Shown here piece by piece: positions 41,960 through 62,485 of a DNA stretch of 64,000 nt (the first letter of the stretch is position 1; each line of letters begins with the position of its first letter). Below the pieces are notes generated by a model, which was not told the origin of the DNA, searched no databases, and was given only the letters and a program-made list of their open reading frames with translations. This DNA comes from Sphingobacteriales bacterium 16-39-50 (lineage in GTDB: Bacteria; Bacteroidota; Bacteroidia; Sphingobacteriales; Sphingobacteriaceae): contig NCHA01000005.1 in NCBI GenBank assembly GCA_002257025.1, positions 62,001 through 126,000 of the forward strand. The letters are read 5' to 3'. A program made the position numbers and the translations under genes.

Positions 41960-42156
41960 CCTTGCTATTTACAGTAAAAGTCCCATTCCTCTCATACTTC
42001 ACTTGAAAATACTCCTTTTGTAGTAGGTAAATACTCCTATTAGCGTATTTATACCGGTAACCTATTTACCCAATTTTGTCCTATAATATCCTGTCCATTG
42101 TAAGAGTTGTTGCCAGTAAACAGGCAGGACCGGATTTACTTTTAATCTACCGCTAT

Positions 42157-43038
42157 ATGTTAATCAAGTACACAGAACAATTGTATGCCGAGATGGAAGC
42201 GCAATTGGAACGCATTAATGGGTCATTAAAAGAAGCTATTCTGAATTTAACGGAATCGCTCTTTTGTATTACAACAACCTTAAATCTTTTAAAAAAACTC
42301 ATTCAGGAACACCCTTTTGAGAATTTCGAGGATGAGATTGATTTTTTTAAAAACATTAAGCCACGATTTTACGGATGGTATATTTATGTGGTTGAGGTAT
42401 ATCATATACTTTCAGCCGTACCTAGTGGTACAGATCAGATGATCCGAGATTATTTTATGGATGAGCTAAAGATCATTAACAGGTATTTTACTATTCATCA
42501 GTTTTACTATCAATACTTCCTGCGGGATGAGACCGCGATGGATGAAAACTATTTTCTACGTGTTAACCTGGTTCCTTTTCCAACCGGATCTGAACAGACC
42601 GCTATTGATCCTGAATTCTCCACTAACCAGGATTATATGTTTTCTAAATTCCGGGCTTACGAAATGCTAAGATCTTTCCTGATCAGGAGGCTAAAGCTTC
42701 TTTACCAAAACCCTGATAATGTTTTTATTGCCGAATTACTCGCCGGTAAAAAGCGCTGGTGGTCTGGCGACAAAGTGGAGCTTGTTGAAGTCGCCTATGG
42801 CATTTATTACACCAATAGATTGAATGCGGGCAAAGCAGAGATTGGAGATGTTATTGAATGGCTGGAAGACAGTCTTCAAATTGATTTAAGCCAGGCTTAC
42901 CGCATGTTCCTGGATATACGCAGGCGAAAAACACTTAGTTATACCAAATATTTAGACGAAATGTGTGAATCAATCCACAAGCATATCGACGAAACCAACC
43001 GTTACAAACCGAAGACTCCCAAGCGACAGAATCTGTAA
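42157..43038 (+). CDS. rteC: RteC-family regulator of conjugative transfer
   Basis: A 293-residue protein from ATG 42157 (MLIKYTEQLYAEMEAQLE); an upstream TTG start is less likely. The long acidic/aromatic helical body matches the RteC family, with FYYQYFLRDETAMDENYFLR and KVELVEVAYGIYYTNRLN. In Bacteroides CTnDOT, RteC activates excision genes. The stop is followed by a perfect 8-bp hairpin (43063-43086). It lies next to a hairpin-rich noncoding stretch, as would suit a regulatory node of the element. Confidence 0.88.
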   Translation: MLIKYTEQLYAEMEAQLERINGSLKEAILNLTESLFCITTTLNLLKKLIQEHPFENFEDEIDFFKNIKPRFYGWYIYVVEVYHILSAVPSGTDQMIRDYFMDELKIINRYFTIHQFYYQYFLRDETAMDENYFLRVNLVPFPTGSEQTAIDPEFSTNQDYMFSKFRAYEMLRSFLIRRLKLLYQNPDNVFIAELLAGKKRWWSGDKVELVEVAYGIYYTNRLNAGKAEIGDVIEWLEDSLQIDLSQAYRMFLDIRRRKTLSYTKYLDEMCESIHKHIDETNRYKPKTPKRQNL

Positions 43039-43062
43039 TTGTTCAAGTCAGGCAATAAATCG

Positions 43063-43336
43063 TTACCAACATTTTGAAGTTGGTAAAGCCCGGCCTTCAT
43101 CCTCCCCAATTTTGTCCCAGTGACAACGAGATCTTTGACATTGGGGGATGAAACATTATCCTGCGGAAGCGGGAAATTTTGCGAAGGTGAGATTATATCA
43201 ATAATCTGAAAGCGCATTGGCAGGCGAGGGCCCGGTTCGTAGGAACCGACGTGAGTAATCCCGAATATATAGAACCAGTATCCGCATGAAGTTTGGTGCG
43301 GATACTGGATTAGCCAAGGGGCATTTTGCCCCTTTT
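43063..43336 (+). ncRNA. Hairpin-rich noncoding region, candidate sRNA or leader
   Basis: Five perfect stems lie in 274 bp: TTACCAAC/GTTGGTAA (43063-43086), AGATTAT/ATAATCT (43190-43207), CGGTTC/GAACCG (43233-43248), CCAGTATCCGCA/TGCGGATACTGG (43275-43308) and GGGGCA/TGCCCC plus TTTT (43318-43336). The last is an intrinsic terminator. No ORF of note lies inside. A weak promoter (TTTTG ... GATCTTTG) could start near 43150. The first stem is probably the rteC terminator. The rest may be a small RNA or a leader controlling the next gene. Confidence 0.55.
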
Positions 43337-43385
43337 ATGTTTCCGAACTTCTCAAAATACTATCCATAAACTTAATTCATATGTT

Positions 43386-44354
43386 ATGTTCTTAAATGCG
43401 AATGAGATCCGGGAAAAGGTTTCTCCTGTGGATCTTTTAGCCCATTTGGGTTATACTCCGGCTTATAAATCAGGCAAAGAGTTATTTTATCTTAGTATGC
43501 TCAGGGAAGAAAAAACCGCATCACTTTGTGTAAATGAGCAACTGGGGATATGGTATGATCATGGCGGGCCAAACCGCTCTGGCATTAAAGGAGGAAATGT
43601 AATTGACCTCGGGCTAGCCTATTGGTTCCCTCTTTCCTTTCCAGAAGTGCTTGAAAAGATTAAGGATACCTGTTCTATTGAAATTTCAAAAATCCCTGCT
43701 CAAAAAGAATTAAATCAAAAGGCCAGACCCCGGATCGCAATTAAGGTTCCAAATTATAAAATTGAAGAAATAAAACCGCTGGGCAGTAATCCCGCCATTA
43801 ATGGTTACCTGCAATATAGAGGGGTATGGGAAACAGCTGCGGAACATCTTAAAGAGATTTACTATTATGTAGAGGACAATAAGAAAAATCGAAAGCATTT
43901 TTTTGCAGCCGGATGGAAAAATGAAAATGGCGGATGGGAAGTGCGCAACAAGTATTTTAAAGGTTGCCTGGGTAAAAAGGGAATGAGCTTTATTCAGGGA
44001 GAAGAGAATCGATTGGCGGTTTTTGAAGGATATTTGGATTTCCTAAGTTGGAAACATGAACAAACACTAAACAAGCCTACTGTTTTAATCCTTAATTCCT
44101 TATCTTTTATCTCAGCTGCTATTGTCCGTTCTTCCAAATTTGAAGCGGTGGATGTTTTTTTTGACCATGATCAATCCGGTAGGCATGCTACACAGCAGTT
44201 GTTATCCGCCATTCCTCATGCCAAAGATCGCTCAGATATATACGCCAGCCATAAAGATTATAACGAGAAACATATGGCTGAAAAAGCCGAATTAATGGGC
44301 ATAAGGTCGACTAGTGATTTTTTTAAAAGCCTTAAAGTTGGTTTTAGTAGGTAA
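43386..44354 (+). CDS. Toprim-domain (primase-like) protein
   Basis: A 322-residue protein from ATG 43386 (MFLNANEIREKVSPVDLLAH). The N-terminus has the layout of a CHC2 zinc finger (EEKTASLCVNEQLGIWYDHG and GGNVIDLGLAY), but the zinc-binding cysteines are missing. The C-terminal toprim domain shows LAVFEGYLDFLS (Glu) and VFFDHDQSGRHATQ (Asp-x-Asp). Such proteins are standard in Bacteroidota conjugative elements just ahead of the mobilisation genes and may prime or process the transferred strand. The preceding terminator suggests control by attenuation. Confidence 0.82.
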   Translation: MFLNANEIREKVSPVDLLAHLGYTPAYKSGKELFYLSMLREEKTASLCVNEQLGIWYDHGGPNRSGIKGGNVIDLGLAYWFPLSFPEVLEKIKDTCSIEISKIPAQKELNQKARPRIAIKVPNYKIEEIKPLGSNPAINGYLQYRGVWETAAEHLKEIYYYVEDNKKNRKHFFAAGWKNENGGWEVRNKYFKGCLGKKGMSFIQGEENRLAVFEGYLDFLSWKHEQTLNKPTVLILNSLSFISAAIVRSSKFEAVDVFFDHDQSGRHATQQLLSAIPHAKDRSDIYASHKDYNEKHMAEKAELMGIRSTSDFFKSLKVGFSR

Positions 44355-44806
44355 CTATTTTACAAATCATTCTCTGAAGGGAGAATCTCGTTTAGTATGG
44401 TTCAACTTAGCTTGTTTTAATCAGATCTTACTAATGGGTTATTCAGCTATTCATTTATGCAAATTGCTGTATAGCCGTATATACGAATAGCTATTTGTTT
44501 ATCTAAACAATTCTTTATATAGTCTGCTAACTGATTAGCCAGATATACAACTATCTACTTTTACAATTATTCAATAAGCTACCTAAACAAATAGCGCTAT
44601 ATATAAACAGACATTGATATCAATAATCGAATAGAGGTTAATCTATATATCTGTTTTATGTCTTAATCTAAATAGCTACTTAAACTAATAGCCAGTAACC
44701 TAATTCAACCCATAAGAAGAGCTCCAGAAAGCTTTAGCCTTTAAACCCACATTTGGCAATACCATCTCCTTTAAAAGGTATTAGTCTCAGTCTTTGTTTT
44801 TATACC
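44355..44806. repeat. AT-rich region with three related 20-bp repeats
   Basis: Three copies of a motif lie about 90 bp apart: AATAGCTATTTGTTTATC from 44486 (inverted), AAGCTACCTAAACAAATAGC from 44576 and ATAGCTACTTAAACTAATAG from 44672. They share a TAAACnAATAGC core. The region also has ATAAACAGA facing TCTGTTTTAT. It holds no gene. It lies just upstream of the mobilisation genes and 2 kb before ParA; partition site or transfer-protein binding sites are plausible. Confidence 0.5.
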
Positions 44807-44915
44807 GGCAAGTTGTGTTTTTGGGTACCCAAAAACTCACTTGCCTTTGACCTGCCTTACCCCTGAAGGGGGAAAGGCTGGACAAAGGAGTGAAAAACCG
44901 CGCAACTTGGTTTTT
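44807..44915 (+). other. Candidate origin of transfer (oriT)
   Basis: Three structures lie directly before mobC. A near-perfect 39-bp palindrome spans 44807-44845 (left arm GGCAAGTTGTGTTTTTGGGT, right arm ACCCAAAAACTCACTTGCC). A CCTTACCCC/GGGGGAAAGG hairpin spans 44855-44877. An AAAAACC/GGTTTTT hairpin spans 44893-44915 around CGCGCAACTT. Nested inverted repeats beside MobC and relaxase genes are the usual oriT setting. The nick site is not identifiable from sequence alone. Confidence 0.6.
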
Positions 44916-44948
44916 CTGCAAAACGCCTAAAAGCCTATCCGAAGCCTC

Positions 44949-45359
44949 ATGAAGAAAGCAATTAAGAAAGTTGGTCGGCCGGAAATGACATCAGGAAAAC
45001 GCACGAAGATTATTAAAGCCAGGCTGACAGAAGATGAATTTAACCAAATCTTGATTATTGAAAAAAGCCTCGGTATCACTCGTATGGAACTTATCCGGAC
45101 AAGAGTGCTTTACAATTCAAGTAAGGTTTTGGTTAATGCAGGGGGGCTTTTAAAACAGCTTGATGCTATCGGTGCAGAAATGGGCAGAGGTGGAAATAAC
45201 ATTAATCAACTGGCCAGGCATGCTAATATACTCAATAATGAAGGTTTGCTGACTGAAAGCGTAGCCAGAGAATTTAACGAACTTTTTCGATCCTACATAA
45301 CTATCCAACAAGAATTGGAAAAAGCGATGCGGCAAATCATTCGACTGATGAAATCTTAA
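44949..45359 (+). CDS. mobC: MobC-type mobilisation accessory protein
   Basis: A 136-residue DNA-binding accessory protein. An N-terminal ribbon-helix-helix-like segment (KARLTEDEFNQILIIEKSLG) is followed by the MobC hallmark GRGGNNINQLARHAN (near 77-91) and a helical C-terminus. MobC proteins bind oriT and help the relaxase open the DNA. It lies right after the candidate oriT and 3 nt before the relaxase gene. Confidence 0.87.
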   Translation: MKKAIKKVGRPEMTSGKRTKIIKARLTEDEFNQILIIEKSLGITRMELIRTRVLYNSSKVLVNAGGLLKQLDAIGAEMGRGGNNINQLARHANILNNEGLLTESVAREFNELFRSYITIQQELEKAMRQIIRLMKS

Positions 45360-45362
45360 TCT

Positions 45363-46589
45363 ATGATTGTAAAAATCCTCAATAAATCCGCAGCCTTTAA
45401 AGGAGTAAGTTATAACACCAGCAAGGTTGAAAAAGATAAAGGCGAACTAATGATGGTACAAAACTTCGGGGCTTTACAAGGCTTGGATCATTTACGGCCA
45501 CAGGATTATATCAATTATCTTGAAGCTCAATCTGCCCGAAGTACCCGGACAAAGTTTCCGCAATTCCATGCTGTTATTTCGGCTAAAGGAAGATCACACA
45601 GCAAAGAGCAGTTAACTGACATTGCGGAGCAATGGCTTAAAGGAATGGGCTACAAAGATCAGCCCTATCTGCTGATTTTCCATAAGGATACGAAAAACAA
45701 CCACATACACATGATTACCACTCGCGTGGGAAAAGATGGACGGAAGATCCCTGATTCTTATGAAAAAATAAGATCATACCAGGTATTAAACCGGGTATTA
45801 GGGATAGATGAAAAAAAGGTTGCTTTAGCGGATCTGAAAAATGCTTTATTGTACAACTTTTCCACCCGTGCGCAGTTCATGATGATTTTAGAAGCACAGG
45901 GTTACGCCCTGACTTTATCACCAACAGATTATAAGATCAGCAAGTTTGGTAAAGAACTGGCTCAAATACCTATAACAAAGGTAGATGAGAGAATAGCTGA
46001 CCATCAAAAAGATAAAGAGCGCATCAGCCAGCTGCGGGCGATAATCGAAAAATACAGGCTACAAACAAATCCGGCAATTTATACTATATCCCGTGATCTT
46101 CCGGGAGGAAAGACAAAAACAATTACCAGCTATTCTTCCAAATTGGCAGAAATGCTGAAGGCTAAGTTCGTAGTTCAAATACTATTTCATGCGAAAGATG
46201 ATAAGCACCCTTATGGATACACCATCCTTGATCATGCGCAGAAAGCTGTTTTTAAAGGTGGCGAAGTCATGTCCTTAAAAGAGTTTATTGACCCCTTACA
46301 ACCCGGAGTCAAAGAGGAAACCAGCCCTGAATTTTCTGGAATAATGAAAGAGATATCCCAGGACAATCTGGCTTTTGATGAGGAAACTCCTAATGAATAT
46401 TCAAGTGAAAATCAAAATCCGGATGAAACCCATGCTATAACTACTGAACCTTCACCCGAACAGGATGGTACAGGAATATCACCTGTTATGTCTGAATTGC
46501 AAATAGATATTGCTGATGACATTGACGATGAAGCGATACACGGACGGAATCGGCGCAAGAAAAGAAAATCAAGAACAAATACCCGATAA
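45363..46589 (+). CDS. Relaxase / mobilisation nuclease (MobA/MobB family)
   Basis: A 408-residue relaxase. The N-terminus holds candidate catalytic tyrosine SYNTSK. The metal-binding motif is HKDTKNNHIHMITTR (near 100-114), preceded by HAVISAKGRSHS. Together they fit the relaxase/mobilisation nuclease family (PF03432). The C-terminal 110 residues are acidic and disordered, ending in a basic tail (GRNRRKKRKS), possibly a secretion or coupling signal. It would nick oriT and lead the strand to the coupling protein. Confidence 0.9.
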   Translation: MIVKILNKSAAFKGVSYNTSKVEKDKGELMMVQNFGALQGLDHLRPQDYINYLEAQSARSTRTKFPQFHAVISAKGRSHSKEQLTDIAEQWLKGMGYKDQPYLLIFHKDTKNNHIHMITTRVGKDGRKIPDSYEKIRSYQVLNRVLGIDEKKVALADLKNALLYNFSTRAQFMMILEAQGYALTLSPTDYKISKFGKELAQIPITKVDERIADHQKDKERISQLRAIIEKYRLQTNPAIYTISRDLPGGKTKTITSYSSKLAEMLKAKFVVQILFHAKDDKHPYGYTILDHAQKAVFKGGEVMSLKEFIDPLQPGVKEETSPEFSGIMKEISQDNLAFDEETPNEYSSENQNPDETHAITTEPSPEQDGTGISPVMSELQIDIADDIDDEAIHGRNRRKKRKSRTNTR

Positions 46590-46607
46590 CTTTATAAAAT
46601 TCATGAA

Positions 46608-47243
46608 ATGGTTATACTAATAGGCAATCAAAAAGGCGGCGCAGGTAAGAGTACGCTCACCCTGCTATTTGCCAATTATTTAGCTACCATTCGCAAGCGA
46701 AGGGTGACTGTACTGGACATGGATTATCAGCAGTCCATCGCCTCCAAATCTGAAAAAGCGAAAATTTTGGAAAACCAGCCGGACTATGAAGTGATCCCTT
46801 CAGATCTCAAGCATTTTCCTATGCTGCTAAATGTATTAAACAAGAATAAAGGCGAGATCGTACTCATCGACTTGCCAGGCAAGATGGACGATGACGGGCT
46901 GATCCCCGTGTTCCTGGCCGGAGATATGATCTTATGCCCGTTTAATTATGATGAATTCTCTGTTGACTCAACACTACTGTTTGCGATGGTCGCCAGGAAG
47001 ATTAATAACCATGCACCATTTATTTTTATTCCCAACCGTATCAAAAACACGGTGAAATACGAAACCAGGCTTGAAGTCGAAAAGGTGTTACAACGCTTTG
47101 GTGTCATAACACCTGGCATTGCTGACCGTGTAGATTTCCAAAGGATCAGCACGGTACATACGCCTCTTATCCTATTACCGGTAATCCTTCCGATCCTTGA
47201 TCTGGTTTACGAAGCCTATCTTTTGAAGGAGGAACAGCCATGA
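46608..47243 (+). CDS. ParA-family ATPase
   Basis: A 211-residue Walker-type ATPase with a deviant Walker A IGNQKGGAGKSTLTLLFANY and Walker B region IVLIDLPGKMDDD. It corresponds in position to TraA of Bacteroidota conjugative elements. It may position the element or the transfer apparatus. The stop overlaps the next start (ATGA). Confidence 0.88.
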   Translation: MVILIGNQKGGAGKSTLTLLFANYLATIRKRRVTVLDMDYQQSIASKSEKAKILENQPDYEVIPSDLKHFPMLLNVLNKNKGEIVLIDLPGKMDDDGLIPVFLAGDMILCPFNYDEFSVDSTLLFAMVARKINNHAPFIFIPNRIKNTVKYETRLEVEKVLQRFGVITPGIADRVDFQRISTVHTPLILLPVILPILDLVYEAYLLKEEQP

Positions 47244-47599
47244 CTGGTATTAAATCTCTTGCTGATGAACTGAGGGAAAAAATCCGATCGCAGGACGCAG
47301 AAAATCCGATAACATCTAAAGAAAACCCTCCTGAAAAAACTAAAAAGCCTTTTGCACTTAAAGTAACGGATAAGGAAATTGCATCTCTATTTAATGCTCT
47401 TGCTGCCTACGAGCTTTGCGGCTCTGACAAAATGCTAATTCGCCTCGATACCCGGACAACCAATTTGCTGAAGCAACTAAAGCTGGCCAAAGGTATTGAC
47501 ATGAACAAGTTCATTGCCTACAGTTTGCAAGTTTTCCTGGAACAGCATCCCTGGCTCAGCTCTTATATTAAAGAAACCCTTAAAAACACTGACTTATGA
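47240..47599 (+). CDS. TraB-position protein, DUF3408-like
   Basis: A 119-residue basic protein with a disordered N-terminus and a C-terminal helix-turn-helix or ribbon-helix-helix-like part (IRLDTRTTNLLKQLKLAKGI). It overlaps ParA and the next gene by 4 nt each (ATGA). Its position after ParA equals that of DUF3408 proteins in related elements. It may be the DNA-binding partner of ParA. Identity is by context and weak likeness. Confidence 0.5.
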   Translation: MTGIKSLADELREKIRSQDAENPITSKENPPEKTKKPFALKVTDKEIASLFNALAAYELCGSDKMLIRLDTRTTNLLKQLKLAKGIDMNKFIAYSLQVFLEQHPWLSSYIKETLKNTDL

Positions 47600-47940
47600 C
47601 ATGGACAAATTTTTTATTGATTTTATTAGTGACTTATCTCACCTACTATGGGCTGAATGTAATCTTTGACCTTTTTATGGCTCGCAAACAACCAGGGTCC
47701 GAAAGTGATCAGGATGTATTGTTTTTCAATGAAGATAATAGCCCTGAGCTGATTACTTATGAAGAAGAGTTGGAAACACCAGCACCTCCATCTGTATCGG
47801 AAAATCCAGAGCCGGACGCTCCAAAACAGTCCAGTTTTACATCGGGACTGCTTAGATCAACAGGCGCCGTTGGCATTAAAGAGTTATTCAATCTGGCAAA
47901 GGATGACCTCATCGAATATACCAGGGCGATCCCTTATTAA
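47596..47940 (+). CDS. Small membrane protein in TraD position
   Basis: A 114-residue protein with one N-terminal helix (about 5-25). An acidic, proline-rich middle (ETPAPPSVSENPEPDAPK) leads to a C-terminal helix (GLLRSTGAVGIKELFNLAKD). It overlaps the previous gene by 4 nt. It has no recognised domain and is placed like TraD in related operons. Confidence 0.45.
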   Translation: MTWTNFLLILLVTYLTYYGLNVIFDLFMARKQPGSESDQDVLFFNEDNSPELITYEEELETPAPPSVSENPEPDAPKQSSFTSGLLRSTGAVGIKELFNLAKDDLIEYTRAIPY

Positions 47941-47991
47941 ACTTTATTGCTACGTATGATTTCTTCACGTTCACCTTAATCAAATTCCAGG

Positions 47992-48315
47992 ATGAAAACC
48001 ATTCCTCAATTTTTGAAGGCAGCTTTGGCTGCCTTTTTTATTGCATTACCTTTTTTTTGCTCTGCTCAACAACCACCTGGTATAAATGAATTCTACCGGG
48101 TAAGCGGCGAAATGCACCGCTGGTATTTCAGTCTGTCCGATCTGGTTTTGGTGGTCGGTGCGATCAGCGGAATACTTGGATGTCTGAGAATCTATACCAA
48201 CTGGCAATCCGGCAAACATCATCACATAGATGCCCAGGTTATGGGCTGGTTCTTTTCCTGCCTTTTCCTAACGTTGATCGGTGTTTTTCTCAGAGCTCTA
48301 TTCAGGGTCAATTAA
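47992..48315 (+). CDS. DUF4134 (TraE-like) membrane protein, divergent copy
   Basis: A 107-residue protein with a signal-like first helix ending CSAQQ and two more helices (SDLVLVVGAISGILGCLRIY and VMGWFFSCLFLTLIGVFLRA). The pattern matches the next gene, a DUF4134 protein, but is more divergent. Two helices with a short cytoplasmic loop resemble VirB2/VirB3-sized pilin-like proteins. It lies 51 nt after the TraD-like gene. Confidence 0.65.
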   Translation: MKTIPQFLKAALAAFFIALPFFCSAQQPPGINEFYRVSGEMHRWYFSLSDLVLVVGAISGILGCLRIYTNWQSGKHHHIDAQVMGWFFSCLFLTLIGVFLRALFRVN

Positions 48316-48354
48316 CTCTTCATTTAAACATTAACCTTTTTAATTCTTACTCTT

Positions 48355-48669
48355 ATGACAAGTAAAACTCAAAAACTGTTATCATTTGCTGCGCTGTTTA
48401 CTGTAGCAGTACAAACCGCCATGGCTCAAGGAGGCGGCGGCACAACCGGAATCAATGCAGCAACATCTTCGCTGACAAGTTACATAGATCCAGTATCAAC
48501 ATTAACCCTTGCGATTGGGGCGGTAGTTGGAATCATAGGAGGTGTACGCGTATACATCAAATGGAATTCCGGCGATAACGACATCAACAAAGAACTTATG
48601 GGCTGGGGAGGATCGTGCCTCTTCCTGGTTTTGGTGTCGGTGGTCATTAAGGCATTTTTTGGTGTTTGA
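48355..48669 (+). CDS. traE: TraE (DUF4134) membrane protein
   Basis: A 104-residue protein with a signal peptide (LFTVAVQTAMAQ) and two helices: PVSTLTLAIGAVVGIIGGVR and MGWGGSCLFLVLVSVVIKAF. This is DUF4134, TraE in CTnDOT, probably a pilin-like subunit (VirB2 equivalent). Its TGA overlaps the ATG of traF. It is the second of a tandem pair. Confidence 0.85.
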   Translation: MTSKTQKLLSFAALFTVAVQTAMAQGGGGTTGINAATSSLTSYIDPVSTLTLAIGAVVGIIGGVRVYIKWNSGDNDINKELMGWGGSCLFLVLVSVVIKAFFGV

Positions 48670-48977
48670 TGATTCGCAAATTTTCCATATACAAGGGGCT
48701 GCAGAAGCCTCTTGTATATAAGGGATTTAAAGGAAAGTTTATTGCCTGGGGAATCGGGTCCCTCGCTTTGGGTTTGGTATCAGGGGGATTATTGGGTGCC
48801 CTGACCAATATGTATCTGGGTGGGATAGTTACAATACTATCCATTGCCGGAGGACTTTCCTATACCTTTTTCCAGCAGAAGAACGGCTTGCATTCAAAAA
48901 CCCACCACAAAGGAGTCTTTATACATCCCATTAATTTAAAAATAAATTATGCAAACACATCAAAAGACCGCATTTAG
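48669..48977 (+). CDS. traF: TraF (DUF4133) membrane protein
   Basis: A 102-residue protein from ATG 48669 in the TGATG junction. It opens FSIYKGLQKPLVYKGFKGKF followed by two helices. DUF4133/TraF is the VirB3 counterpart and is encoded just before the VirB4 ATPase, as here. It overlaps traG by 29 nt. Confidence 0.85.
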   Translation: MIRKFSIYKGLQKPLVYKGFKGKFIAWGIGSLALGLVSGGLLGALTNMYLGGIVTILSIAGGLSYTFFQQKNGLHSKTHHKGVFIHPINLKINYANTSKDRI

Positions 48978-51444
48978 AATACCCTATGCCGGTATTGATC
49001 CTGATGATGGTCATGCTGTACTGTACGGGGAAAGAGGTGATTTCTCAATGATCTTTCAGATTCGGAATTCTGTTTTGCATTACGGTGCAGATCCTGATGC
49101 CTATTCAGCTTACCACCACCTGTTGCTCAACATCATCAAAATCCTGGGTGAAGGGTATATCATACAGAAGCAAGATGTATTCTCCCGCCAAAAATATCAG
49201 CCTAAGCCTGCTACGGAATTTCTACAACAGAAATACAATGAACATTTTGAAGGAAGGGAGTACACCAGCATCAGCACCTATCTTATTCTGACACGCCAGG
49301 TTAAAAGAGGGGCATTTTATGTATACGATAAAAAAGTGCTGAATGATTTTCATCAGCATCGGGGCAAGATATATGACCTGTTGAACGGTTCAGGCTTAAG
49401 CCCTCATCTTTTAGATGAAACGGAGATCAATCGCTATATCACCGCTATCCTGGGCATGGAGTTTTCATCAGGACACGCTGCCCTGGATAATATAAGAGCT
49501 GGAGATCAGCAACTGGAGATTGGTACAAGGGCGTTACGTAATATCAGCCTGATCAATACAGATTCGATTGACCTGCCGGAAAAGCTGGGCACATATATTG
49601 AAAAGCATGACGGGAAGAACCTTCGGGAATTCCCGGTTGATAACCTTTCATTTCTGCATCAAGTTCCCGGCTATCAGTGCATCGTTTATAATCAGGTGAT
49701 TGAGATTCCCGGACAACAGCTTACACTGAATAAACTGGAATTAAAACGTAAACGACATTCCGGAGTACCGGATCCTGCTAACCTGATTTGTGTGGAGGAT
49801 ATTGATCAGCTCCTTGTCGATGTGGCCAGGGAGAATCAGTTGCTGGTAAATGCTCATTATAATATTATAGTTTGCGCAGAGGCTTCCAAAATCAGCAAGG
49901 CCGCCAATTTTATTGAAGCAGCACTTTTCCAGCAAGGTATCATCCCTTCGCGGAATGCCTACAACCAACTGGAGCTTTTTCGCTCTGCTCTTCCCGGCAA
50001 TGCAGTAGAATTGAAAAAATACGACTGGTTTTTGACGACATCAGATGCGGCCCTGTGCTTTTTTTTCAAAGAATCGATGCTAACCGATGAGGATTCAGAT
50101 TTTCTAATTCGCTTCACCGACCGCCAGGGAATTCCGGTAGGCATAGACCCTGCGGATCTGCCGATGCGTACGGGCCGAATTAATAATCGTTCAAAATTTG
50201 TTCTGGGTGGCAGTGGCAGCGGAAAATCTTTTTTTATGTGCGCACTCCTTGAACAATATATGCTTTACAATATGGATGTGGTTATTGTCGATGTAGGTCA
50301 TTCATATTCCGGTTTGTGTGCCTACTTCGGTGGTAAATATTACACTTATACTGAAAAGAACCCAATCACGATGAATCCGTTCTCGATCAGCGAAAGTGAA
50401 TATAACATTGAGAAAAAAGATTTTTTAAAAACCTTGATAGGGTTGCTTCTTAAAGGAGCCGAAGGCTCAATCTCGCAGATAGAAGATACCATATTTTCGA
50501 ATGTGATCTCCGCTTATTATTCTGACTACTTTATGCCGGAATCTGAAAATAAAACAGATGCTCTAAATTTTGATTCCTTTTATAATTATTCGGTAGAGAA
50601 GATTAGAGAGATTAAAGATCATGAAAAGGTCAGTTTTGACCTTGATGAATACCGTTATGTTTTAAAGAAATTTTGCAGAGGCGGTGAATACGGATCGCTC
50701 TTAAATGAAACCTCTGATGTTTCCGTATTTACTGAAAGGTTTATCGTCTACGAAATAGATTCCATCAAAGAGAATAAGGTTTTATTTCCCATAGTGACCC
50801 TGATCATTATGGATGTGGTTTTACAGAAGATGCGCCACCGCACAGGACAACGTAAAGCCCTGATCCTTGAAGAAGCCTGGAAAGCTATTGCATCACCCTT
50901 AATGGCAGGGTACATTCTTTATTTATATAAAACCATGCGCAAATTCTGGGGGGAACCTATTGTGGTCACCCAGGAGCTTGGAGATATTTTGGGTAATGCG
51001 GTGGTCAAAGACAGTATCCTGAATAACTCTGATTCCATTTGCCTGCTGGATCAAAGCAAGTTCAAGGAGAATTACGATGATATCGCAAAACTGCTTTCAT
51101 TAACACCAATTGAACAGAAAAAGATCTTCACCATTAATCAACTTGACAACAAGGAAGGTCGTGGAAAATTTAAGGAAGTGTATATCCGCAGGGGATCAAG
51201 CGGCGAAGTTTATGGTGTGGAAGTCTCGCTATTTCAATACTTGACTTATACCACCGAAAAGCCGGAAAAAAATGCCGTTGAAACCTACATGAGGGCTTAC
51301 GGATCTTACCAGGCAGGGTTGGAAGCTTTTGTTTCCGATCTGGAGCGAAGCAGCTTGAAGCTTGAAACATTTGTCCGAAAAGTTAATCTGGAAGGGATAC
51401 TCCCAGTTGGTTCTTTAGAATATTTTAAACCTGATTTTATATGA
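48949..51444 (+). CDS. traG: TraG, VirB4-type conjugation ATPase
   Basis: An 831-residue ATPase that powers the mating-pair apparatus. Walker A is GGSGSGKSFFM (near 420), Walker B is KALILEEAW (near 640), and an ASCE arginine/glutamine region follows (VVTQELGDILGN). The N-terminal half fits the VirB4 family. Its stop overlaps the following gene (ATGA). In Bacteroidota this gene is called traG although it is not the coupling protein. Confidence 0.93.
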   Translation: MQTHQKTAFRIPYAGIDPDDGHAVLYGERGDFSMIFQIRNSVLHYGADPDAYSAYHHLLLNIIKILGEGYIIQKQDVFSRQKYQPKPATEFLQQKYNEHFEGREYTSISTYLILTRQVKRGAFYVYDKKVLNDFHQHRGKIYDLLNGSGLSPHLLDETEINRYITAILGMEFSSGHAALDNIRAGDQQLEIGTRALRNISLINTDSIDLPEKLGTYIEKHDGKNLREFPVDNLSFLHQVPGYQCIVYNQVIEIPGQQLTLNKLELKRKRHSGVPDPANLICVEDIDQLLVDVARENQLLVNAHYNIIVCAEASKISKAANFIEAALFQQGIIPSRNAYNQLELFRSALPGNAVELKKYDWFLTTSDAALCFFFKESMLTDEDSDFLIRFTDRQGIPVGIDPADLPMRTGRINNRSKFVLGGSGSGKSFFMCALLEQYMLYNMDVVIVDVGHSYSGLCAYFGGKYYTYTEKNPITMNPFSISESEYNIEKKDFLKTLIGLLLKGAEGSISQIEDTIFSNVISAYYSDYFMPESENKTDALNFDSFYNYSVEKIREIKDHEKVSFDLDEYRYVLKKFCRGGEYGSLLNETSDVSVFTERFIVYEIDSIKENKVLFPIVTLIIMDVVLQKMRHRTGQRKALILEEAWKAIASPLMAGYILYLYKTMRKFWGEPIVVTQELGDILGNAVVKDSILNNSDSICLLDQSKFKENYDDIAKLLSLTPIEQKKIFTINQLDNKEGRGKFKEVYIRRGSSGEVYGVEVSLFQYLTYTTEKPEKNAVETYMRAYGSYQAGLEAFVSDLERSSLKLETFVRKVNLEGILPVGSLEYFKPDFI

Positions 51445-52100
51445 AAAAGCTAATCTCAATTTTAGGGTTTTGCCTGCTGGTTTTGCCGGGTTTTACCCAG
51501 ATCTACATCGATCCGGCGACAGCCGGTGCAACGGCAGCCCATTCAGGAATCATTAATGGCCAGCTTAATAAAACCAACGATAATCTGACCTTGATACAAC
51601 GCGGACAACTGGCGGTAACAGGGCAACTGGTAATAGTAAACGACTTGCAAAACCAGATCTATAAAGGTTTGAGTGAGGTATCGGGCGTAGTCCGATCATT
51701 ACTTGCGGTAAAGGATATTACCGAAATCAGTATTGACATAGTGGAAGATGTAAACAAGGCGGTCACTATTGCCCAAAGCAATCCTGCGCTGTTGCTATTT
51801 GCGGAAGGGGGTGCTAGGGAGTTTAAAACACGGGCTACCAACCTGGCGGCAGAGGTCAGTTCATTTGTATTACAAGGCGGTAAGAGTAACCTCATGGATT
51901 CGGGAGAACGGGCAAAACTGTTGAACAGGATCGTTAATGAATTGATGATCTTACGGGGTGTGGCCTACGGTATGTACCGCTCCATGTACTGGGCAAAACA
52001 GCGTGGGATACTAAATTCTCTGAACCCCTATGCGGGGTATATCAATATCGATAAACAGATCGCTGATGATATTATCCGAAATGCCAAATACCTGAAGTAA
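51441..52100 (+). CDS. Exported conjugation protein, first of four related genes (TraI-position)
   Basis: A 219-residue protein with a signal peptide ending GFTQI. A helical body (TNDNLTLIQRGQLAVTGQLV) follows, with a C-terminal motif NIDKQIADDII that recurs in the next genes. It sits in the place of TraI (DUF4141) in CTnDOT, a VirB5-like position. Its TAATG junction couples it to the next gene. Role in the apparatus is inferred. Confidence 0.6.
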   Translation: MKKLISILGFCLLVLPGFTQIYIDPATAGATAAHSGIINGQLNKTNDNLTLIQRGQLAVTGQLVIVNDLQNQIYKGLSEVSGVVRSLLAVKDITEISIDIVEDVNKAVTIAQSNPALLLFAEGGAREFKTRATNLAAEVSSFVLQGGKSNLMDSGERAKLLNRIVNELMILRGVAYGMYRSMYWAKQRGILNSLNPYAGYINIDKQIADDIIRNAKYLK

Positions 52101-52759
52101 TGAAATATTTTATTCTCTTCTTGATCTTGTTGGGCATAGTGTCTGAAGGATCAGCCCAGATAAATGTACAACTCTTGCATCAGTTAGTGGCCGAAAGCAA
52201 ATCAGAGCATAGCAAACAAGAGGAAGCTAGAAATAAACAAGCCATTACATCTGCAAATGAAGAAGTGAACCGTTCTCAAATGAGCAAGCTTAAAACCAAA
52301 TACCGCGAATTGCAGAGCCGCTTCCAAACGCTCGGATTGGCAATAGATGCTACACAGATTGGATTACAAGCTGCGCCTGTTATAACAGAAATCATCCAGC
52401 AGCAAAACCTTATTTTCCAGCAAGCAGGTAACGACCCATTATTGATATTGCTTGCCTATAACGCTGAAATGGACATGGCTGATCAGGCATATTTACTAAG
52501 TAACTACTTGTACGGACTGGCAATAAGTTTCGGTGATCTAAACCAGATGAAATCCAGCGACCGCAAAATACTGTTCAGCCATGTTTTGACAGAATTGCGT
52601 AGGATCGCCGGGGCATCGAGAGGGTTGGCAGCAACGATGTACTACGCCAGCAGGAAAAAAGCACTTCAATCTATAAACCCCTTTGCAGACTTTATCAATG
52701 AGGATAAACGATTAGTTAATGACATCCTGCGAAAAGTCGATCTTCTTAAAAACCCCTGA
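52100..52759 (+). CDS. Exported conjugation protein, second paralog
   Basis: A 219-residue protein with signal peptide (LGIVSEGSAQI). The body is shorter on glycine than its neighbour and has a coiled region (KQEEARNKQAITSANEEVNR). The C-terminus repeats the motif as NEDKRLVNDIL. The Arg/Tyr-rich stretch RGLAATMYYASRKKAL matches the RSMYWAKQRGIL stretch of the first paralog. Start overlaps the previous stop (TAATG). Confidence 0.6.
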   Translation: MKYFILFLILLGIVSEGSAQINVQLLHQLVAESKSEHSKQEEARNKQAITSANEEVNRSQMSKLKTKYRELQSRFQTLGLAIDATQIGLQAAPVITEIIQQQNLIFQQAGNDPLLILLAYNAEMDMADQAYLLSNYLYGLAISFGDLNQMKSSDRKILFSHVLTELRRIAGASRGLAATMYYASRKKALQSINPFADFINEDKRLVNDILRKVDLLKNP

Positions 52760-52763
52760 TCTC

Positions 52764-53429
52764 ATGAAACACATTCTCTTTTTACTTTTAATATCGACGG
52801 GCTGGTTAACTGGGCTTGCCCAAGTTGTGGTTTTTGATCCCAGGCACTTTGCCACAGTCAATGAAAACGGGGTAGCTCGTCTTATGGCCGAAAACACGCA
52901 CAATAACTATCTTAATACGATCAATAACAGGCTGGATGATATTAACCTTAATATCTCTTCAGTAGTGATGGTACAAACGCTCATCCGTAACTCTCTAACT
53001 CAAGTAAACCAGGCGCTAAAAAGCGGTTTAACAGTTTTGCAGATCGGTCAGATCTCTTACGAAATCATCAAGGAAAGTAGTAATATGATCGCTATAGCAA
53101 GGACGGATCCTGTGTTGCTTTTGTTTGCTGAAGATGTTGCCCGGCAAATGAAATCACGCGGCGTTAACCTGGTCAGTGAGGTATCTGGCTTCATCTTAAA
53201 AGAAGGTGATAATGTTCTGATGGATTTTGAAAAGCGAGATGCGCTTCTCCGCAAAGTTATCCTGGAGCTAAGGGTAATGCGGGCTTTATGTTACAGTATG
53301 AGTCGATCCATGTACTGGGCAAAAGTGAATGGGGTGCTGAAAACAGCTAATCCATACCGTGATTTTATCAACCAGGATACCAGACTGGTAAATGACATCC
53401 TGTTTAAATATAGCCTCCTAAAAAAATAA
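52764..53429 (+). CDS. Exported conjugation protein, third paralog
   Basis: A 221-residue protein from ATG 52764; the longer in-frame start at 52719 is inside the previous gene. It has a signal peptide (ISTGWLTGLAQV). The body is close to the first paralog (VMVQTLIRNSLTQVNQALK, SRSMYWAKVNGVLK), and the C-terminus is NQDTRLVNDIL. The three paralogs likely arose by duplication and may form one multi-subunit part. Confidence 0.6.
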   Translation: MKHILFLLLISTGWLTGLAQVVVFDPRHFATVNENGVARLMAENTHNNYLNTINNRLDDINLNISSVVMVQTLIRNSLTQVNQALKSGLTVLQIGQISYEIIKESSNMIAIARTDPVLLLFAEDVARQMKSRGVNLVSEVSGFILKEGDNVLMDFEKRDALLRKVILELRVMRALCYSMSRSMYWAKVNGVLKTANPYRDFINQDTRLVNDILFKYSLLKK

Positions 53430-53431
53430 CG

Positions 53432-54214
53432 ATGAAAACAATACAACTATTAATCCTGCTCCTCTTCTTAGGTTGCAGGTCCACTTTCGCACAAATGGTG
53501 ATTAATGATGAATCTATCCGGTATCAGCAAGAGCGCATGGTGTTTAAACAATGGGACAAGGATAAGTTTACTCCAAAACCTGGTTTTTTAGGTCTTAATC
53601 CCTTTTACTGGCTAACATGGGCCTGGCATCCTGATTACAAGAAAAAAGATCTGCGTCCCTTGGGACCAATAGGACCACAAACACAACGCCTGATCTTTGT
53701 TGCTGCCATGCAAAACACGGAGAATGCTTATAAATTACAAGCAGACACTTTACGAAATACGGCAGTCACCGAAGCAGTCAACTATTCCGGCATAACCTCT
53801 GCTGCCGATCCATTATGGTTGTTGTACTATCGGCATGAATTCGATCCTCTAATAAATCAACAGGATGACGAATTACTAAACGGCCTTACCCAAAAAGAGA
53901 AGGATTACCTGAATCGTAGCGGAGTATTGAGCTGGTACCTGGAAGAAAGTCAAGCTTTAAATGAACGGCTAGATGCCGCACGTAATACAACTGTAGATAG
54001 AGGATCCCGCATGTTAGCTTATTATCGCCTCCTGGCCGAATACCGCAAGCTGGCTGCAGCATGGGATACCAAGAAGCAAAATGCAAAACTATATCTTTCT
54101 CTAGCGGAGTCAGCAGATAAAGTTAAAGGTCAGAGCGTCCTGATTGAGAAGAATACTGGGTACAGAACGGATAAACAGATCGCAGATGATGTACTGAACA
54201 AATCCAAACTTTAA
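53432..54214 (+). CDS. Exported conjugation protein, fourth member with shared C-terminal motif
   Basis: A 260-residue protein with signal peptide (LLFLGCRSTFAQM). The N-terminal 90 residues are aromatic-rich (GLNPFYWLTWAWHPDYKK) and differ from its neighbours, but the end TDKQIADDVLNKSKL repeats the C-terminal motif. It is 2 nt after the third paralog. It could be the membrane-proximal partner of the group. No domain is named. Confidence 0.55.
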   Translation: MKTIQLLILLLFLGCRSTFAQMVINDESIRYQQERMVFKQWDKDKFTPKPGFLGLNPFYWLTWAWHPDYKKKDLRPLGPIGPQTQRLIFVAAMQNTENAYKLQADTLRNTAVTEAVNYSGITSAADPLWLLYYRHEFDPLINQQDDELLNGLTQKEKDYLNRSGVLSWYLEESQALNERLDAARNTTVDRGSRMLAYYRLLAEYRKLAAAWDTKKQNAKLYLSLAESADKVKGQSVLIEKNTGYRTDKQIADDVLNKSKL

Positions 54215-54224
54215 ACGAATAGCT

Positions 54225-55367
54225 ATGACAACTATCCAAATGATAACCGGCCTCGCCGGTTTTTTTGTGCAGGGTCAACCCGTTAATGTCCCGGACTCTT
54301 TCAAGGATACATTTAATTTTCTACAAGGGAATGGAGTATATGAGGAAGGAACAATGCACTTTTTAAAACAGATGAAGAACACCATCTGGACGCATTACGA
54401 TGCTTTCGTTGCAGATGCACAGGCACTGTCAGCCATCTTTATGCTCATTTTCTTTGCTATTAAGTCGTATGAGATGATGTCGGGCGACAAAAAGCTAGAG
54501 ATTATGCCGCTTTTACGGCCTTTCGGCCTGGTAATGGTCATTCTCTGGTGGTCGACTTTTACCAGGGTGGTTGCTTTTCCGACTGATGTGATTGCCAATA
54601 AAACCGAAGCCGTGTTTGACGGCAGCCAGAGAGCAGTGAATGACCTTCGCCTTCAACGTGCCAAGCTCATGGTAGAAGTTTCTGATCAGTTGCTCACCGT
54701 ACAAGCCCAAACTGAAACAGCCAAAAAGGAGGCAGATACCTGGTATGAGAATGCTTGGGAATCCGTCCAGTCTTCAGTAAAGGAAGGATTTTCCGAAGTT
54801 TGGAACCCGATTGTCGAAATGCGCAACCGTTTACAGGTCGGTCTTCAACTGCTTGCAACTTCCTTACTGGAAACAATTGCTTTGTGGTTCTTGCGCATAT
54901 GCGTCTATGTGATCTTTATTATACAAATCATCTTTTCAACGATTTTGATCATTCTCGGACCTTTTTCAGTGGCGATCAGTATTCTGCCTGCTTTTCGGGA
55001 TTCGTTTGGTACATGGGTGGCACGCTTTATATCTGTCAATCTGTACTCTGGCATTGCGTATTTGGTAATGTATGTTGCTTCCCTTTTTCAGCAATATGCT
55101 ATGGAAGCAGAGATTACCCGTTACCAAGAGCTAGTTGGTACATCTGGAGCAAGCATGGAGAAACTTAGTGTGTTTGCAGGAAATGGTGTCCTCTCTTTTG
55201 GGATAGTTATCGGAACATTTATCATCGGGGCACTGACCATGCTTACCGTTCCCAGTATATCCACATGGATTGTTTCCACCTCTGGTATTACCTCCGCTGC
55301 TTCTTCAATGGGTAGAGGAGCATCCAATATGTCCCGCATGATGACCCGCATGATCACTAAAGCATAA
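54225..55367 (+). CDS. traJ: TraJ, VirB6-like membrane channel protein
   Basis: A 380-residue polytopic membrane protein with about six helices (AIFMLIFFAIKSYEMM, TIALWFLRICVYVIFIIQ, GILSTILIILGPFSVAIS-like block near 240-260). TraJ of Bacteroidota elements is the VirB6 equivalent in the inner-membrane channel. The C-terminus is rich in Ser, Met and Arg (GRGASNMSRMMTRM). It precedes traK by 66 nt. Confidence 0.83.
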   Translation: MTTIQMITGLAGFFVQGQPVNVPDSFKDTFNFLQGNGVYEEGTMHFLKQMKNTIWTHYDAFVADAQALSAIFMLIFFAIKSYEMMSGDKKLEIMPLLRPFGLVMVILWWSTFTRVVAFPTDVIANKTEAVFDGSQRAVNDLRLQRAKLMVEVSDQLLTVQAQTETAKKEADTWYENAWESVQSSVKEGFSEVWNPIVEMRNRLQVGLQLLATSLLETIALWFLRICVYVIFIIQIIFSTILIILGPFSVAISILPAFRDSFGTWVARFISVNLYSGIAYLVMYVASLFQQYAMEAEITRYQELVGTSGASMEKLSVFAGNGVLSFGIVIGTFIIGALTMLTVPSISTWIVSTSGITSAASSMGRGASNMSRMMTRMITKA

Positions 55368-55433
55368 TACTTTATTCTTTAACCCAGATTTGGCTGCTCT
55401 AACGGGTGGCCATTTCTTTTAAATCCAAATTCG

Positions 55434-56054
55434 ATGATCATCAAAAATATTGAAAGCAAGGTCAGGCTGGCCACCTTTCTATCTGCGGGCAGTTTCCTTA
55501 CGGCCATTATTATAGTATTAATTGTCAGCTTTTTTGCTTACGAGCAGGTGGCCGATGCCCGTAAAAGTGTTTACCTTCTGGATGCAAACAGCGTTCCGCT
55601 TCTGGCCCGACAAACGGATGTACATATGAATCGGGCGGCAGAATATCGGGCACATATCAATCTGTTTCACACACTATTCTTTAATCTTACTCCCGACGAT
55701 AAGTTTATTGAATATCAGATGAAGCAGGCAATGTACCTGATCGATGAAAGCGGTGCTGCCCAGTATAATAACTTAAAGGAAAAGGGGTATTTTAATTCGA
55801 TCCTTTCTTCAAGCGCTGTACTTACCATCCGTACAGACTCCATTTATGTGGATGAAGGAAAAAAGTACTTCCGCTATTACGGTACGCAAAAGATAGACCG
55901 CAGAAGTTCAACCATAACACGCTCTCTAATTACCGAAGGCTACCTAAGTGATCTTAAAAAACGATCGGACAATAATCCGCATGCCGTACTGATTACGCGC
56001 TGGAAAACTTTGGAAAACAAAGACCTTGAAAATGTCCAGAAAAACAATTTCTGA
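55434..56054 (+). CDS. traK: TraK, VirB8-like protein
   Basis: A 206-residue bitopic protein with one N-terminal helix (about 15-37) and a periplasmic domain, typical of TraK/VirB8 scaffolds. Landmarks are RKSVYLLDANSVPLLARQ and HINLFHTLFFNLTPDD. It overlaps the next gene by 23 nt. Function is assembly of the mating channel. Confidence 0.85.
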   Translation: MIIKNIESKVRLATFLSAGSFLTAIIIVLIVSFFAYEQVADARKSVYLLDANSVPLLARQTDVHMNRAAEYRAHINLFHTLFFNLTPDDKFIEYQMKQAMYLIDESGAAQYNNLKEKGYFNSILSSSAVLTIRTDSIYVDEGKKYFRYYGTQKIDRRSSTITRSLITEGYLSDLKKRSDNNPHAVLITRWKTLENKDLENVQKNNF

Positions 56055-56457
56055 ACAGGATAACCAGGTTACTCTGTTCAGTGAACTAAGAAAAGAATTC
56101 GCAGGGTACTTTACCCTGCTTTCACAGCGACGAAACCAGTTTCTGCAAAGATATCCAAGGCAAGTTTTTATGGGTATGCTGATCTGCCTCGTCACCTCTG
56201 TTGTGCTTGCATTTTCGGTAATGCGTCAGAAGAAGGTATCAACCCCATCAGGGATTGGAAAGGCCGGAGCCGAGATGACTTCCGGGTTGGGACAGATACT
56301 AAATACCGGCACTGCCTTGAAAGAAATACTGGAGCTGCAAAGTCAAGTTGAAATTATTCTTAAAAAAGACAGCCTGAATCAGGCCGATAGCCTTTTGTTA
56401 AAAGCGGCATTCGACAGGCTGGAATCCATTAACAAAAAATTAAACCCCAAGCCATGA
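56032..56457 (+). CDS. TraL-position small membrane protein
   Basis: A 141-residue protein from ATG 56032, inside the end of traK. It has a basic cytosolic start, one helix (MGMLICLVTSVVLAFSV, about 43-60) and a helical C-terminus. Its position between TraK and TraM is that of TraL. It overlaps traM by 4 nt (ATGA). No domain is visible. Confidence 0.6.
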   Translation: MSRKTISEQDNQVTLFSELRKEFAGYFTLLSQRRNQFLQRYPRQVFMGMLICLVTSVVLAFSVMRQKKVSTPSGIGKAGAEMTSGLGQILNTGTALKEILELQSQVEIILKKDSLNQADSLLLKAAFDRLESINKKLNPKP

Positions 56458-57674
56458 AGATAGATTTTAAAAAGCCACGGTACATTATACCGCTGATTAT
56501 ACTGCCTTTTGTGTGCATTTTCTTTTATGTCTATAAGAGCAGCTTTGGTAAAGAAACACCACCACAAGCAGGTAAAGACTCCCTGCAAGTAAACCTTGCC
56601 GGTGTATCTGATAAGGTCAGAAACCAGGCGCTAACAGATAAGCTGGATGCTTACCGTAATGAGTATAAAAAAGCAGATGGTTATACTGCTATCGGGCAGA
56701 TCCAGGAAGAGCAGGCAAGTAATCAGGATCCAAATTCTTTATATAATGATAAAGAAAAGCGAATGCTTGACTCTATCGAAAAAGCCATGAACCGAAAATA
56801 TGGAATGGCCTCACAGGAAAGGCCAATCGGTTCCAATACTAATTTTCCAGATGCTTCCCTCCCGTTCAGGAAGTCAAGATCGCCAGAACAGCAGGATAAG
56901 GCTCTCGCAGAAGCTTTGGCAAAAATGAACCAACATCCTCCGGTTACCGGTTATCGCCAGACTGCACCTGAACAAACAGATCCTATGCAGCTATTCCGAC
57001 AGCAAATGGCTTTAGTTGATAGTATAGGGAAAGCCAATGACCCCGATTACAAGGAAAAGCAGCAGCAGAAGCAACAAGCCGAGCTGTTGGAAAAAGACTT
57101 GAAGAGCAAGAAAAAATTGTCTGTCAGTAAATCTGATGCTAATGCCCATGTATTTAACACCATAAGTGCCGATCAAAACGAAACTTTTATTACTGCGATC
57201 ATTGACCAGGATATTACCGGCTATGCAGGCTCACGTTTAAGGATCCGCTTATTGGAGGATATGATGGCGGGACGCTTTTTGGTTAAAAAAGGCACTTATT
57301 TGTTTGCCCAGATCTCCGGTTTTAGTGGCCAGCGGGTTAACCTTACCATTACCACGATCATGCAGGGAAATAATATCCTGCCCGTAAAACTGGATGTTTA
57401 TGACAACGATGGGCTTCCGGGCCTGTATGTCCCAGCCTCAGCCTTTAGGGAATTTACCAGGGAATTAGGTGGCAGTACCAGTCAGGGCATTACGCTTCAA
57501 CAACAAGCTGAAAATAACAATCAACTGGTTATGAGTATGGTTCAGAAAATGTTTCAGTCAACAACAACCGCTGTTAGCAAATTGATTCGCCAGAATAAAG
57601 CAAAGCTGAAATATAACACGATAGTCTATCTCATAGACCCAGACGAATTAAAAGCTAACCAAAACAACTATTAA
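56454..57674 (+). CDS. traM: TraM, VirB10-like conjugation protein
   Basis: A 406-residue bitopic protein: one N-terminal helix (IIPLIILPFVCIFFYVYK, about 11-28), a long Gln/Lys-rich spacer (30-225) and a C-terminal beta domain (AGRFLVKKGTYLFAQISGFS and VKLDVYDNDGLPGLYVPA). This is the layout of TraM, the VirB10 counterpart that spans the envelope. It is 9 nt ahead of traN. Confidence 0.88.
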   Translation: MKIDFKKPRYIIPLIILPFVCIFFYVYKSSFGKETPPQAGKDSLQVNLAGVSDKVRNQALTDKLDAYRNEYKKADGYTAIGQIQEEQASNQDPNSLYNDKEKRMLDSIEKAMNRKYGMASQERPIGSNTNFPDASLPFRKSRSPEQQDKALAEALAKMNQHPPVTGYRQTAPEQTDPMQLFRQQMALVDSIGKANDPDYKEKQQQKQQAELLEKDLKSKKKLSVSKSDANAHVFNTISADQNETFITAIIDQDITGYAGSRLRIRLLEDMMAGRFLVKKGTYLFAQISGFSGQRVNLTITTIMQGNNILPVKLDVYDNDGLPGLYVPASAFREFTRELGGSTSQGITLQQQAENNNQLVMSMVQKMFQSTTTAVSKLIRQNKAKLKYNTIVYLIDPDELKANQNNY

Positions 57675-57683
57675 CTCTTTTTT

Positions 57684-58517: not shown

Positions 58518-58533
58518 AATCGTGTTGCAAAGG

Positions 58534-58749
58534 TTAACCGCAGCAGGATGTTCCCTGCTGGATAGGCGGACATTTAACCGTTCCATAGCTGCAAAACACA
58601 CAGCAATCGCCCGTAAACGGCTTTAAGCGTGCCTTACAGCTTTCACATTCATAAAAGTACTGACAGGCATCGATCGGCATTTCTTCCTCTTTTTGAAAGC
58701 CGCAATTGGGACAGGTAATTACAGAATTTAGCAGGATTGCTGTTGCCAT
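58534..58749 (-). CDS. Small Cys-rich protein of mercury clusters (GDCCVFCSYG)
   Basis: A 71-residue zinc-ribbon-like protein: CPNC and CESC pairs in the first half, then GDCCVFCSYGTVKCPPIQ. The GDCC-x-C-SYG-x-CPP signature occurs in small proteins next to merTP genes. It may bind metal in the cytosol. It lies 4 nt after merTP and 16 nt from the convergent traN stop. Confidence 0.72.
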   Translation of the reverse strand: MATAILLNSVITCPNCGFQKEEEMPIDACQYFYECESCKARLKPFTGDCCVFCSYGTVKCPPIQQGTSCCG

Positions 58750-58753
58750 ACGA

Positions 58754-59721: not shown

Positions 59722-59737
59722 ATCAAATATCAAGTTA

Positions 59738-59769: not shown

Positions 59770-59868
59770 AGAGTTTTTACGATAACGCGACTTGCATGAA
59801 TGATAAACTTAAAACTCATTAAGGAGAATTCACAGTTTTTTAAAATCTCACCCTTTATTTAATTAATT

Positions 59869-62437: not shown

Positions 62438-62485
62438 CTGGCTTCAATTATTAAAACTAATGAAAGACTAAAAAAATAAATTGTT

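Follow-up and report, generated by a model that had tools for sequence, protein, structure and literature searches.

A conserved boxA-headed RNA at the start of conjugative transfer operons in Sphingobacteriaceae, a candidate processive-antitermination leader

The sequence analysed here (the window) is a 64,000-nucleotide stretch of contig NCHA01000005.1 of Sphingobacteriales bacterium 16-39-50. In it an rteC gene and a conjugative transfer module are separated by 347 nt (from rteC to the toprim gene), which hold the RNA described below and its neighbouring signals (Table 1); after the relaxase gene, TraG/TraJ/TraM-type conjugation genes continue to the window end. Between the toprim gene and nikA there is an AT-rich non-coding stretch of 595 nt (44355-44948), with a near-palindrome (ttgggtacccaa) near nikA, and this stretch is likely the oriT region. 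RteC could act at the inverted repeat that follows its own gene; similar repeats were seen by eye at other loci (L003, L008, L033-L036 and others), all of them with an adjacent rteC. The Bacteroidota -7 element has the consensus TAnnTTTG, as given in the relevant part of PMC7366714, and a weak match to it, CAATTTTG, places the predicted transcription start at about 43120.

Table 1. Features around the rteC-toprim gap (positions in the window)
Feature	Positions	Strand	Remarks
rteC	42076-43038	+	PF09357, E 6.3e-59
Inverted repeat CGTTACCAAC-N8-GTTGGTAAAG	43061-43088	.	just 3' of rteC; candidate RteC operator
Weak -7-like element CAATTTTG	43107-43114	+	18 nt 3' of the inverted repeat
boxA GATCTTTGACAT	43130-43141	+	directly 5' of P0; motif profile from 85 non-redundant upstream segments
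Structured core closed by P0	43145-43262	+	covariation
Closing helix P0	43145-43149 with 43258-43262	+	paired in 98.4% of cells; 5/5 pairs with double changes (alignment A2)
Helix P1	43159-43164 with 43169-43174	+	covariation
Helix P2	43178-43183 with 43213-43218	+	encloses P3 and P3b; covariation
Helix P3	43186-43187 with 43206-43207	+	inside P2; covariation
Helix P3b	43191-43193 with 43197-43199	+	inside P2; covariation
Helix P4	43223-43225 with 43230-43232	+	covariation
Helix P5, GTAG loop	43233-43238 with 43243-43248	+	covariation
Strong 3' hairpin	43275-43308	+	not conserved in sequence; class-A relatives have an acceptor/T-arm-like hairpin in its place
Intrinsic terminator GGGGCATTTTGCCCC-TTTT	43316-43336	+	class B
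Toprim_2/primase-like gene	43386-44354	+	first gene of transfer module
NikA-like accessory gene	44949-45359	+	
MobA/MobB-type relaxase gene	45363-46589	+	

An earlier sequence-only reading had proposed a structured RNA in this gap, with three perfect stems and an intrinsic terminator 50 nt ahead of the toprim gene and with no open reading frame (ORF). These elements are present in the sequence: the terminator arms GGGGCA (43318-43323) and TGCCCC (43327-43332) are followed by TTTT (43333-43336), the toprim ATG at 43386 follows the T-run at a distance of 49 nt, and no ORF overlaps the window copy at cut-offs of 60 aa (+ strand) and 100 aa (- strand). Its three stems correspond approximately to P1, P5 and the long 3' hairpin; P0, P2, P3, P3b and P4 were added by covariation, and the boxA is a feature that it did not contain. 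The region folds with a z score of -5.8, and none of 200 shuffled sequences was equally stable. A blastn search with 43105-43345 gave matches in 123 of 399 Sphingobacteriaceae genomes, and 80 more loci, together with five named loci found through RteC, brought the collection to 117 core copies in 115 sequences. The part conserved by blastn spans approximately 43130-43270, neither the long hairpin nor the terminator being conserved in sequence among relatives, and we take boxA plus core (43130-43262) as the conserved unit.

Covariation of the core was evaluated on two alignments. The first (A1; 42 of the 117 copies, non-redundant, with a short P3, built by MAFFT without structure) had double changes in 24 of 31 base pairs and 92.8% of its cells paired, a value that fell to below 48% when the pairing partners were slid. 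For the second (A2), 100 of the 116 sequences (99 loci and the window) were used as input and fitted to a covariance model, giving 103 matches, 97 of them distinct; two degenerate second copies (L015, L044), the damaged L045 copy and one duplicated record (L032) had been kept out of the alignment set. Here double changes occur in 28 of the 31 pairs and 93.1% of cells are paired, the covariation score is 0.497 (compared with 0.195 after shuffling and at most 0.116 after sliding), and none of 500 shuffles matched the alignment on any of five measures. P0, which joins the two ends of the core, reads GGGAU/AUCCC here and GGAGU or GGGAC elsewhere, each with matching partners. Among variant cells (summed over the table) there are 50 G-U against three C-A combinations, indicating that the molecule is an RNA read from the + strand. 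The existence of a conserved structured RNA at this locus is therefore virtually certain. Conservation of the stems in related elements, which had been set beforehand as a test, is borne out by these double changes and by the genome search with the covariance model (R1), which found the RNA in 145 of the 399 family genomes, in nine of 25 genera.

The R1 search of a phylum sample (strict filters and eight candidates scored per genome, as in the family search) gave matches in six of 395 Bacteroidota genomes, all six of them Sphingobacteriaceae; toprim relatives outside the family were without the RNA (two matches in 26 loci, both within the family), and a search of a plasmid collection returned no match. 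No Rfam family matches it at the gathering score, with weak chance matches at the E-value threshold only; by the tests applied, the RNA belongs to none of the named RNA families. The window's own genome holds a single copy by R1. Two loci carry a degenerate second core beside the intact one (L015:2277-2397 and L044:7569-7705), which suggests decay of nested or tandem elements. There is also a divergent clade (G064, G099, G234, G285 and others) that lies outside the alignments and has a core of about 163 nt and lower R1 scores; by blastn it has the promoter-proximal stretch in common with the window.

The sequence directly 5' of P0 is conserved as GNT(C/A)TTTGACAT; GNTCTTTGACAT is fully matched in 72 of the 117 copies and with one mismatch in 42, and in all of 103 copies it stands exactly 3 nt from P0. 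GNTCTTTGACAT agrees with the boxA of the 16S-23S spacer, GTTCTTTGACAT(ATTGG), in all of 30 rrn loci, which come from 26 relatives; the spacer motif is flanked by exact tRNA-Ala and 23S landmarks in 21 of these loci, and in six genomes of the same genus (seven loci) the motif is present and followed by the 23S start. Ten of 11 positions agree with the published boxA GYTCTTTAANA, the second base being variable; this consensus is a gamma-proteobacterial one, as stated in the cited section of PMC5725501. By its sequence, the motif is a boxA, that is, a predicted NusB/S10 site of the rrn type. The degenerate 12-mer GNT[CA]TTTGACAT occurs at eight places in the window's own genome and its reversed control at six, and because the motif is not rare by itself the case for boxA rests on conservation and position. 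In the single rrn locus of that genome (L162, G000:C67) the exact 12-mer is absent from the 16S-23S spacer, reflecting either a real loss or an assembly fault, and the rrn leader contains GTTCTTTAAAGA.

Other explanations of the conserved 5' sequence were considered and rejected. A TTGACA promoter with its -10 element inside the core would have a spacing that lands in P0 and P1, which covary as RNA; a TAnnTTTG promoter disagrees with the upstream profile, which has G at the first position in 94%. An upstream hairpin (CTGCC..GGCAG) is present in only 14 of 117 copies and by eye is the coding end of the upstream ORF in many loci, and so is not counted as part of the RNA. The predicted fold of the window places boxA within a 5' hairpin (43116-43146) that would hide it and compete with P0. 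Across copies, pairing between the stretch upstream of boxA and the 5' strand of P0 is better than in shuffles at p <= 0.05 in 10 of 84, with some enrichment among rteC-adjacent elements, and this hairpin is a possible additional layer of control.

The position of the RNA relative to genes is consistent across copies. In the 117 copies whose neighbouring genes were searched, many of them with short flanks, a toprim gene was found downstream in 100, nikA in 81 and mobA in 70, and rteC was found upstream in 44; every flanking gene found lies on the strand of the RNA, with no case on the opposite strand. The next + strand ORF starts within 450 nt downstream in 104 of the 115 copies for which such an ORF was found. 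This first ORF varies (toprim, a gene of about 91 aa, or nikA), so that control is not aimed at one particular gene. We consider it very likely that the RNA is a cis leader of the transfer operon: it is structured, encoded in cis and heads a long operon on the same strand, as do antiterminators of the put, EAR and canT type.

Downstream of the core there are two kinds of 3' module. A script assigned 52 copies to class A (a hairpin resembling an acceptor/T-arm), 46 to class B (an intrinsic terminator, as in the window) and 18 to neither, the last group including four that are class-A-like by eye (L027, L052, L054, L072), several with terminators missed by the filter and a few with none; one false class-A call (L102) and one false class-B call (L055) were dropped. 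Inspection by eye gave about 56 of 117 copies as class A, with no terminator after the RNA. Overall, a terminator follows the RNA in about 40% of relatives and about half are without any. The class-A hairpin, which resembles an acceptor/T-arm minihelix in its 8 + 4 bp and loop of 7 nt, has compensatory changes, and each class-A RNA has one: in 15 genomes it was found at 16 places, always 14-42 nt away from the core matched by BLAST. It may be cut by tRNA-processing enzymes. That it is a true tRNA was rejected: ARAGORN found no tRNA in 15 loci, and the A at the fifth T-loop position is present in only 16 of 52 class-A loops (loop statistics being biased, because the detector demanded CG at loop positions 3-4), so that we treat the resemblance to tRNA as a lead and not as a claim.

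In class B the terminator lies close to the gene that follows. The distance from the end of the T-run to the next start codon (the first ATG of an ORF of at least 70 aa, true starts possibly lying somewhat further downstream) has a median of 29.5 nt; it is 30 nt or less in 24 of 46 copies, thus providing the downstream terminator that accompanies antitermination RNAs, and 0 nt in six. A promoter hardly fits into so short a space, and the operon is therefore probably transcribed through the terminator, although a promoter between terminator and gene is possible in the 14 of 46 copies where the distance exceeds 60 nt. The terminator does not appear to be switched by the core. Duplex energies between the terminator arms and the core were no better than those of shuffles, and neither a conserved alternative pairing nor mutually exclusive helices were found, so a terminator/antiterminator switch was rejected. 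Together with the class-A copies, which keep the core without a terminator, this indicates that switching an adjacent terminator is not the main task of the core.

A cis-encoded RNA that starts with boxA, a fold rigidly attached to it, a terminator to pass and a long operon beyond are together the anatomy of processive antitermination. We therefore favor, with a probability of roughly 0.6 and on grounds of sequence and comparison, the reading that the RNA acts in cis, as a leader with boxA at its head that brings about processive antitermination in the transfer operon of integrative and conjugative elements (ICEs) found in soil bacteria of the family Sphingobacteriaceae. As the leader emerges from RNA polymerase, host NusB/S10 would bind boxA, and together with NusA/NusG or some unknown factor the folded domain would dock on the elongation complex; the polymerase would thereby become resistant to terminators and pass both the leader terminator and terminator-like sites within the 20-kb operon. 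Polymerase that enters by chance, with no RNA loaded on it, would be halted at the leader terminator, so that the transfer genes would stay off. Such a modification of polymerase would be useful in class A and class B alike. The terminator-like sites carry little weight as evidence, because they are equally common on both strands (15 on the + strand and 15 on the - strand in 43340-63330, 30 in total versus 18.4 expected). A NusG paralogue borne by the element was rejected as a partner: none was found in the element, and the two NusG-type genes of the genome both lie on contigs other than that of the element. The sequence-only reading had suggested an attenuating leader by which the transfer genes are kept in check. 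The leader is supported by the common strand, the proximity of the next ORF and the terminators near start codons; the simple hold-back gives way to read-through, given the boxA start, the lack of alternative pairing and the roughly half of copies that have no terminator. More tentatively, and at somewhat less than even odds, we generalize to a new RNA family, in which conjugative elements from these bacteria fuse the ribosomal boxA of their host to a docking domain of their own, with a geometry that is fixed and with two interchangeable 3' modules, so that the polymerase on the transfer operon would run in rRNA-operon mode.

Several of the same observations can be read in other ways. The core could be an aptamer that senses a ligand or protein and, much like a riboswitch, controls attenuation at the neighbouring terminator; a conserved, aptamer-like core with a terminator after it, as in class B, agrees with this, as would the concealment of boxA in some rteC-adjacent elements by pairing with P0. 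But the terminator and core have no conserved alternative pairing, the core is kept in class A without a terminator, and the pairing that would hide boxA stands out in just the 10 of 84 copies given above; we regard this reading as quite unlikely. A DNA element (an oriT or single-strand origin, with hairpins acting in the transferred single-stranded DNA) would explain the location upstream of nikA/mobA, and the P1 hexamer ATCCTG bears what we take to be a resemblance to an IncP-type nick site. As a nick site the hexamer was rejected, since it is not conserved and covaries within P1; moreover, the frequent G-U wobbles and near absence of C-A point to RNA, we know of no role for an rrn boxA in DNA transfer, and the non-coding stretch beside nikA is a better oriT candidate, which leaves this reading very improbable. 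The possibility that GC-rich DNA between genes merely folds by chance is refuted for the structure by the covariation in 97 distinct sequences and by the shuffles, and can be given almost no credence.

A trans-acting small RNA deserves fuller consideration, because the sequence-only reading had also named an analogue of RteR from CTnDOT. The terminator or 3' hairpin would then yield a discrete RNA of about 200 nt that controls tra mRNA, by base-pairing or otherwise, and boxA would only protect its transcription. The discrete unit with its terminator is compatible with this, and in class A the hairpin could be where the RNA is processed and where its 3' end is set. RteR itself has the same kind of link, to a conjugative element of the rteC type and to the tra genes of that element; it is set apart from the RNA here by its description as a 90-nt trans-encoded, trans-acting RNA that acts on the tra operon (in the portion of PMC7366714 concerned). 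Two observations stand against a trans-acting RNA: it keeps its location before the transfer genes and its strand although the first gene changes, and a trans RNA needs neither; and the gene start is often very near the terminator. The proposed analogy to RteR received no positive support, R1 having no homologue outside the family in the 395 Bacteroidota genomes sampled under strict filters, and we consider the small RNA unlikely, and less likely than the cis antitermination leader.

In its proposed action the antitermination leader would resemble several known systems, among them lambda nut/N and the rrn boxA as well as put, EAR and canT, and it has parts in common with them. Nut sites have a fixed boxA-to-boxB distance, and the RNA here likewise has a fixed distance from boxA to structure, its structured domain being much larger than boxB and unlike it. 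EAR is an Rfam family, in contrast to the RNA here, which has no Rfam match, and to our knowledge boxA is part of neither EAR nor put. In the sections cited, EAR RNA (Bacillus subtilis eps) and put RNA (phage HK022) are presented as RNA-only processive antiterminators of long operons (PMC8955417), and the rrn boxA and lambda nut sites, bound by NusB/S10, have the same boxA sequence and place on the nascent RNA (PMC4807359, PMC5725501, PMC12691694). A likeness in setting, by description and not by sequence, is to canT RNA of the ICE Tn916, a non-coding cis RNA placed for read-through of terminators before and inside the transfer operon; its terminator T1 and the beginning of the first gene overlap, in a manner similar to the class-B leaders (PLoS Genet 2024, PMC11658703). 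canT differs in being Gram-positive and in having a proven function, whereas antitermination here is read from sequence; the fragment studied was 452 nt, and boxA is mentioned zero times in the text of that paper. The conAn1/conAn2 system of pLS20 opens a long conjugation operon by antitermination, as we propose here, but requires a protein partner, according to the relevant part of PMC8955417.

In a search of the published literature we found nothing on boxA in Bacteroidota conjugative elements. The RNA family is thus widespread and, by the literature searched, undescribed, and it has a concrete candidate role in switching on gene transfer. RfaH is given in part of a 2022 paper as the only antitermination system known for conjugation in Gram-negatives (PMC8955417); if the reading proposed here is true, RNA-based antitermination would serve an operon for conjugation in a phylum of Gram-negative bacteria. 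On the more tentative, general reading, horizontal transfer would be tied to the rRNA antitermination machinery and to growth state. A natural boxA fusion would also help in the study of Nus-factor complex formation in Bacteroidota.

Further along the transfer module, a gene with a MerT/heavy-metal domain (58754-59428) lies on the - strand, opposite to the transfer genes, between a TraN-like (DUF4138) gene and a TraG/TrwB-type coupling-protein gene, and is mercury cargo inserted in the module.
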